A stretch of DNA of 37,752 nt from a virus. The stretch lies in the IMG/VR virus record IMGVR_UViG_3300035138_000080, positions 1-37,752 of that record; one strand, written 5' to 3'. A program made the position numbers and the translations under genes. This document shows positions 4,672 to 6,115 of this stretch, piece after piece; the first letter of the stretch is position 1, and every line of letters begins with the position of its first letter. The notes beneath the pieces are model-generated. The model did not search any database, was not told the origin of the DNA, and was given only the letters and a program-made list of their open reading frames with translations.

Positions 4672-4851
4672 CTACACCGACCACGACCACGCCCGCAGCC
4701 CCGACCCATACCTATGCCACGACCTTGGCCCAGATCGAGACCACGGCCCTGACCGCTCCCAAGCCCACGACCCAGCCCACGACCACGACCAAGCCCACGA
4801 CCCAGCCCACGACCTAGGCCCTACCCAGCGCTCAAAAATAGCTATGCTCAT
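4672..4851 (-). CDS. Ser/Trp/Arg/Gly-repeat ORF A7 (last of chain)
   Basis: A 59-residue ORF beginning MSIAIFERWVGPRSWAG and ending AWSWSV at a TAG just outside the array. It is the seventh ORF of the coupled chain, followed by the hairpin element ahead of the exonuclease gene. Translation is unproven. Confidence 0.4.
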   Translation of the reverse strand: MSIAIFERWVGPRSWAGSWAWSWSWAGSWAWERSGPWSRSGPRSWHRYGSGLRAWSWSV

Positions 4852-5114
4852 TCTCCAGACCACGCCCACGAATGATTCCACGCCCCCGACCGCGACCACG
4901 CCCGCGGAACAAGCCCTGAGCTAGACGACGACCACGCCCACGTCAACGACCACGCCCACGCCAACGACCACGGCTCCGACCACGGCCAAGATACAGACCA
5001 CGGCCCCGACCTAGACCACGCCCGCGCCCCAGACACAGACTGCGACAACGGCCCCAGGAACGCCCACGGACCCGGCCACGCACCTACCCAGCGCTCAAAA
5101 ATAACTATGCTCAT
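4848..5114 (-). CDS. Ser/Trp/Arg/Gly-repeat ORF A6 (divergent)
   Basis: An 88-residue ORF beginning MSIVIFERWVGAWPGPW. The alternation is partly lost, with FLGPLSQSVSGAR and an SSSSSG run, and it ends WSGE rather than YKK. Even so, the frame is kept and the TGA still overlaps the next ATG. The degenerate spacer and altered core edge suggest an older copy. Confidence 0.35.
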   Translation of the reverse strand: MSIVIFERWVGAWPGPWAFLGPLSQSVSGARAWSRSGPWSVSWPWSEPWSLAWAWSLTWAWSSSSSGLVPRAWSRSGAWNHSWAWSGE

Positions 5115-5263
5115 TTTTTGTACCCCAACCGCGAACACGGCCACGGCCCCGACCACGACCCCGACCACGACCACGTCCCCGACCGCGACCACGACCGCGA
5201 CCACGCCCCAGACCACGACCCCGACCTAAGCCCTACCCAGCGCTCAAAAATAACTATGCTCAT
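5111..5263 (-). CDS. Ser/Trp/Arg/Gly-repeat ORF A5
   Basis: A 50-residue ORF beginning MSIVIFERWVGLRSGSW and ending SRLGYKK, with ATGA overlaps at both ends. Its spacer is one of the shorter ones, and the reading frame is kept as in the others. Confidence 0.4.
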   Translation of the reverse strand: MSIVIFERWVGLRSGSWSGAWSRSWSRSGTWSWSGSWSGPWPCSRLGYKK

Positions 5264-5520
5264 TTTTTGTACCTCGACCGCGACTGCGACCGCGGCCCCG
5301 ACCACGACCGCAACCACGACCCCAACCACGACCCCAACCACGACCGCGACCACGCCCACGCCCCCGACCACGACCCCGACCCCGACCCCGACCCCGACCC
5401 CGACCTCGACCACGCCCACGCCCCAGACCACGACCACGACCTCGACCACGACCACTCCCCAGACTGCGACCACGGCCTCGACCTAGGCCCTACCCAGCGC
5501 TCAAAAATAGCTATGCTCAT
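5260..5520 (-). CDS. Ser/Trp/Arg/Gly-repeat ORF A4
   Basis: An 86-residue ORF beginning MSIAIFERWVGPRSRPW and ending SRYKK. It includes a pure Gly-Ser stretch and a repeated WLGS block, the mark of local hexamer duplication. It has ATGA overlaps with A3 and A5. Confidence 0.4.
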   Translation of the reverse strand: MSIAIFERWVGPRSRPWSQSGEWSWSRSWSWSGAWAWSRSGSGSGSGSGSWSGAWAWSRSWLGSWLGSWLRSWSGPRSQSRSRYKK

Positions 5521-5759
5521 TTTTTGTACCCCAACCGCGACTGCGACCGCGGCCCCGACCCCGACCACGACCACGACCCCAACCACGACCCCAACCGCGA
5601 CCCCGACCACGACCACGCCCTCGACCCCGACCTCGACCCCGACCTCGACCACGTCCCCGACCGCGACCACGACCGCGACCACGCCCCAGACCACGACCAC
5701 GGCCGCGACCACGGCCACGGCCTAGGCCCTACCCAGCGCTCAAAAATAACTATGCTCAT
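5517..5759 (-). CDS. Ser/Trp/Arg/Gly-repeat ORF A3
   Basis: An 80-residue ORF beginning MSIVIFERWVGPRPWPW and ending SRLGYKK, with ATGA overlaps at both ends. The opposite strand is also open here, as a Thr/Pro-rich reading starting at the core ATG and as an Asp/His/Pro reading, so the coding strand cannot be settled by eye. Confidence 0.4.
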   Translation of the reverse strand: MSIVIFERWVGPRPWPWSRPWSWSGAWSRSWSRSGTWSRSGSRSGSRAWSWSGSRLGSWLGSWSWSGSGPRSQSRLGYKK

Positions 5760-5956
5760 TTTTTGTACCTCGACCACGAACACGGCCACGGCCTCAACCT
5801 CGAACACGACCGCGGCTGCGACCTCGACTGCGACCTCAACCACGACACCGACCGCGACCCCGACCCCGACCACGACCACGGCCACGACCCCGACCTCGAA
5901 CACGACCACGACCTCGACCTAGGCCCTACCCAGCGCTCAAAAATAGCTATACTCAT
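5756..5956 (-). CDS. Ser/Trp/Arg/Gly-repeat ORF A2
   Basis: A 66-residue ORF: MSIAIFERWVGPRS, then Ser alternating with Arg, Trp, Gly, Gln or Pro, ending SRYKK. It has ATGA overlaps at both ends. The head and tail peptides come from the conserved core and the middle from the hexamer run, so length variation of the run changes only the repeat domain. Confidence 0.4.
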   Translation of the reverse strand: MSIAIFERWVGPRSRSWSCSRSGSWPWSWSGSGSRSVSWLRSQSRSQPRSCSRLRPWPCSWSRYKK

Positions 5957-6033
5957 TTTTTATACCCCGACCCCGACCTCGAACACGACCCCGACCTAAG
6001 CCCTACACGGCGCTCAAAAATAGCTATGCTCAT
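5953..6033 (-). CDS. Ser/Trp/Arg/Gly-repeat ORF A1 (first of chain)
   Basis: A 26-residue ORF starting in the outermost core. It begins MSIAIFERRVGLRSG, has a very short repeat tract and ends SGYKK. Its TGA overlaps the ATG of A2 (ATGA). It may act as the entry point for translation of the chain; no strong Shine-Dalgarno sequence precedes it, which weakens the coding case. Confidence 0.35.
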   Translation of the reverse strand: MSIAIFERRVGLRSGSCSRSGSGYKK

Positions 6034-6115
6034 TCTTCGTTCTCCGACACTCTCTCACACCACAACCAGCAATCTAAATAATGCGGCTATTTTTGTTAAA
6101 AGATATCGGTATAAA

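Follow-up and report, generated by a model that had tools for sequence, protein, structure and literature searches.

Tandem Ser-X repeat genes of an uncultured virus appear to be an amplified form of a widespread phage gene pair that includes a predicted Sm-like protein

The IMG/VR virus record IMGVR_UViG_3300035138_000080 (37,752 nucleotides, here termed the window) contains runs of a hexameric repeat which, read leftward, form a chain of short overlapping open reading frames (ORFs) with serine at every second position. This raises the question whether these Ser-X ORFs are genes or by-products of a repetitive DNA and, if they are genes, which other phages carry them and what their products might do.

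ORF analysis revealed ten tiny, overlapping Ser-X ORFs in the window, all on the minus strand and arranged in two chains. The first chain (4672-6033) comprises seven ORFs: 5953..6033 (26 aa), 5756..5956 (66 aa), 5517..5759 (80 aa), 5260..5520 (86 aa), 5111..5263 (50 aa), 4848..5114 (88 aa, with a more diverged repeat and the frame still open) and 4672..4851 (59 aa). It is the longest Ser-X tandem chain seen. The earlier note on this DNA had described seven minus-strand ORFs of 26-88 aa joined by ATGA stop/start overlaps, and both the ORFs and the overlaps (6/6 junctions, including that of the first two ORFs) are present; the YKK tail that it had assigned to them was found in five of the seven, the ORF at 4848-5114 ending in SGE and the last one in WSWSV. 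The second chain (1467-2073), absent from that note's entry, lies downstream of recT and consists of the ORFs 1837..2073 (78 aa), 1646..1840 (64 aa) and 1467..1649 (60 aa), with three further copies of the core sequence. Altogether this core (ATGAGCATAGYTATTTTTGAGCG...) occurs in ten exact or near-exact copies in the 37.7-kb record, all on the minus strand, and the reversed pattern, used as a control, yielded zero copies in the whole window. In both chains the spacing of successive cores equals 5 mod 6, which indicates that only whole hexamers were gained or lost, without frame-breaking indels. The repeat unit in the Ser-X frame is TCG-NGG, encoding serine followed by tryptophan, arginine or glycine; TCG-NGG is dominant among the approximately 250 hexamers of the window, and alanine or proline replaces some of the serines in diverged copies. 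The window ORFs thereby show the pattern by which members of the family were recognised, namely alternate serines with X mostly Trp, Arg or Gly encoded by NGG. From their overlaps, the chained ORFs may be inferred to be translationally coupled.

Stop codons in the window arrays were counted in all six frames and compared with 5000 shuffles of the hexamer columns. The Ser-X frame contained 0 stops against 9.4 expected (0/5000 shuffles were as low), whereas the other five frames contained 4, 5, 6, 1 and 3 stops against 2.1, 3.9, 5.9, 1.0 and 3.6 expected, respectively, in line with the shuffles. With the 54 distinct units only, 0 stops were observed against 3.6 expected (P = 0.012). Since duplicated units are not independent, stop avoidance in this single genome constitutes moderate evidence for coding, and it is the comparison with relatives that settles the question.

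The Ser-X chains are part of a leftward operon-like run that also includes a gene here called gene A (6183..6464, minus strand, 93 aa), a YqaJ/RecE-like exonuclease gene between the two chains (3570..4526, minus strand; Pfam PF09588, E 2e-11; phrog_434), a small gene (3191-3565) and, beyond the latter, the gene of a RecT-like annealing protein (2139..3227, minus strand; Pfam PF03837, E 2e-18; phrog_148). Elsewhere in the window, a 14-bp tandem repeat ACGATTAAACTCTG (7.5 copies, 98% identical) occupies the intergenic positions 11524-11628 and possibly represents iterons or a replication origin. A 10-bp repeat ATGTAACGCA (9131-9227) encodes a CNACNADVTQCNA stretch within a replication-initiation-like ORF (8763-9860, phrog_16167), and a small RyR-domain protein is encoded at 8211-8567 on the minus strand (Pfam PF02026, E 2e-12; phrog_5154, function unassigned). 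No reverse transcriptase, the mark of a diversity-generating retroelement, was found among the subset of window genes scanned, and megablast of the first 25 kb of the window against phage records gave no match.

Relatives were sought through the repeat, the core and the neighbouring genes. Searching viral and genome collections for the exact core, a check that the earlier note had suggested for other phages and metagenomes, returned nothing outside the window and thus no same-core relative. Scanning IMG/VR contigs with the degenerate hexamer (GACCNC)5 yielded at least 119 stretches, and several of the array-bearing loci repeat the chain architecture with other cores: MNPAIQAW in L024, where AGGAG stands ahead of each ATG, MIILKANEWA with an ATGA overlap in L021, and a further core with a GTGA overlap in L017/L072. 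The portal gene as an anchor led to an identical contig of 13 kb (L012) and to a single distant relative. The recT anchor yielded a single distant locus, which argues against the Red genes being key to the Ser-X family. Comparison of the window genes with 104 other hexamer loci by phmmer detected gene A homologs in 49, a recT homolog in one and an exonuclease homolog in none. The tie to the Red genes drawn in the earlier note thus does not hold, recT and exonuclease not being general neighbours; that note had recognised the Ser-X chain and had left out gene A, the partner that defines the system.

The window gene A directly precedes the first chain on the same strand, with a gap of 149 bases and no overlap before the Ser-X start, and it aligns in A2, an alignment built from gene A proteins first found beside Ser-X arrays. 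With A2 as bait, 12 loci were recovered in genome_contigs and 419 relatives in viral_contigs (IMG/VR), the best 80 of which were retained (79 loci). In an automatic test of these 91 loci, which were collected with a bait derived from array-bearing loci and include several contigs present in both sets, a Ser-X ORF was located directly downstream of gene A in 84; two loci were cut by the contig end and five were scored negative. One of the negatives (L183) does have a Ser-X ORF, and one of the cut loci (L170) shows the beginning of one; a Ser-X ORF after gene A is truly absent in L140, L145, L152 and L154. In L152 and L154, a 98-aa ORF (MSDKLFKYKASSWIKPAIERLEIL...) with an ATGA overlap takes the place of the Ser-X gene and is possibly an alternative partner of gene A.

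Among the 83 Ser-X starts that could be placed, 55 overlap the gene A stop in the ATGA manner (-4) and 13 in the TAATG manner (-1). The contigs of these loci range from 24 to 71% in GC content. The Ser-X proteins share a start of about 12 residues with the consensus MNxAxLRxGFDxS (Asn at position 2 in 50%, Ala at 4 in 51%, Leu at 6 in 54%, Arg at 7 in 62%, Gly at 9 in 68%, Asp/Glu at 11 in 59% and Ser at 13 in 65%). The window start peptide, MSIVIFERWVG, is divergent from this consensus; its nearest counterpart in the set, MSISIFQAGFD of L191, looks like an intermediate between the two. A second start type, M-R-x-x-K-Q-K-Y-R-S, precedes the Ser-X tail in L014-L132 (e.g. L082, L087, L094 and L130). 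Additional Ser-X ORFs (MNATLLRAGFDRSG, MNATLLGTGLRGSG) occur upstream of gene A in L198 (9337), L200 (7910) and L201 (9355), resembling the second chain of the window in being away from gene A, and in L168 the second ORF past gene A is a Gly-rich repeat ORF, MESIINYGYGSGSGYGSGSG..., which adjoins the Ser-X gene. The neighbourhoods correspond to early/replication regions, including replication initiation genes, and contain helicases (13 loci), a PDDEXK protein (7 loci), Thy1 and YopX, with no fixed third partner. Taken together, gene A and Ser-X very probably constitute a conserved two-gene phage module, and the window, judged from these comparisons, is a tandemly duplicated and amplified case of this widespread, unnamed gene pair.

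The module permits the coding question to be answered across phages. Within an array, serine is written with essentially a single codon, and this codon differs between arrays: TCG in most gene A loci, TCA for example in L139, L187, L203 and L212, TCT in L146, L159, L191 and L218, and AGC in L136, L157, L182, L184 and L205. No single serine-keeping substitution joins TCN and AGC. The X codons of the gene A loci are nearly all NGG, and arginine is encoded by CGG in some arrays and by AGG in others; most non-TCG arrays use one of the two only, and the window arrays use both. Across loci, X is Arg in 913, Gly in 809 and Trp in 746 cases, followed by Leu with 70. Such codon switching with a constant peptide excludes a fixed DNA motif, and a fixed protein pattern combined with frequent homogenisation by unit duplication suffices to explain it. 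The conserved entity is the protein (Ser-[Trp/Arg/Gly])n, not a DNA motif. Moreover, in none of the 76 checkable arrays does the repeat extend beyond the stop of its frame unless a new start follows: 68 arrays end at the stop and the other eight show, or lead into, another Ser-X ORF downstream. Frame breaks or in-frame stops without consequence in the arrays of relatives, to which the earlier note had pointed as evidence against its proposal, were not observed among these 76, and its coupled chain of repeat protein genes is borne out by related modules that keep the frame, the start and usually the stop/start overlap. Phase variation, which it had also considered, is unsupported, since lengths shift by whole hexamers and the frame is kept. 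On this comparison, the Ser-X frame is virtually certain to be protein-coding. By the same symmetry the plus strand also displays chain-like ORFs, with TTG starts and with stops in degenerate units; the possibility that they encode Asp-X or Thr-X proteins was discarded on account of these starts and stops and because such proteins are not conserved when the serine codon changes. An RNA hairpin formed by two A/T-rich arms of the core that are able to pair was likewise discarded, as the cores of other phages lack such a sequence.

The module appears to have escaped notice so far. Gene A was found in one of 50,697 deposited phage records, the uncultured myovirus ctTUS972 (MW202573.1), and not in plasmids. 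The gene pair of the window recurs in ctTUS972, where it consists of gene A and MNAAIIRAGLDASWSWSWSWSRSRSWSWSGSRSGSRSRSGSGS (UOF78857.1/UOF78858.1) with an ATGA overlap; unlike the window, ctTUS972 has one Ser-X copy, and both proteins are annotated as hypothetical. In Planctomycetota, the phylum of L142, gene A was present in only 1 of 392 genomes, so that no host phylum can be assigned. A tblastn search of phages with a Ser-X protein gave no match, probably because the low-complexity filter masks the query, and this may be the reason for which the family has been overlooked. A literature search, mostly without subscription journals, found no description of a Ser-X/gene A system, in agreement with the earlier note, which was aware of no phage system of this kind. 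The pair is unnamed in Pfam and NCBIfam, and gene A has a weak match to one PHROG of unknown function and no strong one.

The gene A product was analysed in silico. Seven or eight gene A proteins gave no match to Pfam or NCBIfam profiles at E values up to 1, including those of Sm, LSm and Hfq, and a PDB profile search detected no Sm chain. The AF2 model of gene A (pLDDT 88.9) was most similar in VIA-align to the archaeal Sm protein 1i8f (Z 10.2, rmsd 1.4 over 64 residues); all of the best 50 entries listed were Sm/LSm (Z 8.9-10.2), and the model displays the five-stranded bent sheet of the Sm fold. Foldseek gave a weaker result, with Sm/LSm in the top rows, a best E of 4e-3 and none below 1e-3. 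The gene A product is therefore predicted from its model to adopt an Sm/LSm fold. A similar Sm-like fold is predicted for uncharacterised phage proteins, DUF6948 members among them (BFVD A0A6J5MA76, A0A6J5KRP8, A0A6J5KXD6); the likeness to gene A is one of fold, gene A having no match in Pfam. When gene A and Ser-X of L160 were folded together through the in-frame stop, the gene A part was confident, the Ser-X start formed a short low-confidence helix and the tail was unstructured (pLDDT ~46-60). At module loci the median net charge is +8 for Ser-X and -3 for gene A; the window gene A has a net charge of +3, which shows that simple charge pairing is not general.

The tails of the Ser-X proteins are subject to turnover. 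Among relatives whose gene A DNA is 86-98% identical, the Ser-X start is kept and the tail differs in length and order; close relatives differ by hexamer units and substitutions. L193 and L221 share gene A at 86% DNA identity and their flanks do not align, which shows that the module travels as a whole. Tandem chains, each built on a core peculiar to its phage, arose several times, for example in L021/L217, L024, L079, L104, L124/L202 and L166.

We propose that gene A and the one or more Ser-X genes that follow it, usually with overlapping stop and start, would act as one module. Its Sm-like protein would be joined by a Ser-X protein made of a conserved start and a disordered, basic and aromatic (Ser-[Trp/Arg/Gly])n tail; the start would be the anchor by which the chain is held on the Sm-like protein, and the Arg/Trp tail may bind RNA or single-stranded DNA, of the phage or of the host, early in infection. 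Extra Ser-X copies would raise valency or dosage. The tail would grow, shrink and shuffle in frame because three hexamers that are one base apart recombine and slip easily. Eukaryotic SR and RGG proteins are comparable in that their basic arginine chains with serine or glycine bind RNA and condense; the Ser-X chain differs from them in its strict alternation with tryptophan, its phage origin and its lack of an RRM domain, and no homology is claimed. Closer counterparts are eukaryotic SmB, SmD1 and SmD3 as well as Hfq, which combine an Sm fold with a disordered chain, Arg/Gly-rich in the Sm proteins, and of whose tails the Ser-X chain would be a detached, exchangeable version. They differ from the phage pair in that the Ser-X chain is encoded separately and begins with a conserved start peptide, is strictly Ser-X, rich in Trp, variable in length and tandemly duplicated, and in that gene A lacks a Pfam Sm match. 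Published accounts describe Hfq tails as tuning RNA handling (PMC5606850) and link Hfq to single-stranded DNA in replication and recombination (PMC10392684). Taken as a whole, the explanation that Ser-X chains are disordered nucleic-acid-binding partners of the Sm-like protein has, in our estimate, slightly less than an even chance of being right. Doubtful, though conceivable, is its extension to a split Sm ribonucleoprotein system, in which an Sm-like ring protein and separate, exchangeable (Ser-[Trp/Arg/Gly])n chains would form an RNA- or ssDNA-organising condensate specific to each phage. In such a system, which would be widespread and fast-evolving in uncultured phages, hexamer slippage would rebuild the number, length and order of these chains.

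Other functions were weighed. The variable tails beside a conserved start, at 86-98% identical gene A, and the presence of up to ten copies per genome would also suit binding or decoy proteins that diversify quickly and so escape a host defence factor or titrate it, the order of Trp, Arg and Gly and the length being the variable part under diversifying selection. This is unlikely, as slippage alone suffices for the turnover and as the composition is almost constant in phages that span 24-71% GC, which speaks for some generic physical property over specific recognition. An overlapping gene pair in which a folded protein is followed by a cationic Trp/Arg-rich chain, with a host-takeover anti-restriction gene near the module in L142, recalls a toxin-antitoxin-like or host-takeover pair, the Ser-X products being secreted or membrane-active antimicrobial-like peptides or toxins neutralised by the gene A product. 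We consider it quite unlikely: no signal or membrane segment was seen in the Ser-X sequences, ten tandem copies beside a single gene A would be a strange layout for a toxin, the fold search pointed to Sm/LSm and not to antitoxins, and the regular serine spacing is, to our knowledge, atypical of secreted or membrane-active Arg/Trp-rich peptides. Regular low-complexity chains with several copies raising the dosage could moreover play a structural or assembly role, for instance by scaffolding or gluing together virions or replication compartments, and the gene A product would then be their chaperone. This is decidedly improbable given that the genes lie among those for early functions and replication (helicase, PDDEXK nuclease, replication initiation) and not among head or tail genes. 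Finally, that the arrays act as DNA or RNA (an origin, a RecT/exonuclease recombination hotspot or a structured RNA) and only look coding, as the earlier note had also envisaged, would fit the regular hexamers, the open-frame chains on both strands and the flanking of recT and exonuclease by two arrays, yet it is largely refuted and hardly credible, since the hexamer varies between phages by codon switching while the peptide stays, stop avoidance is confined to one frame, the start peptide is conserved and overlaps gene A, recT/exonuclease homologs are missing near nearly all other arrays, and Rfam gave no match.

An odd repeat in one contig thus leads to a gene family whose gene A relatives number at least 419 in IMG/VR and which is nearly absent from deposited phage records. 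Ser-X is an extremely regular low-complexity protein that is kept by protein-level selection through differing codons, beside a protein of predicted Sm fold. If the products of gene A and Ser-X act jointly, phages would possess a two-part Sm system of their own, and the natural tail variants would provide a series in which the effects of length and Trp/Arg/Gly composition on binding and condensation may be followed.
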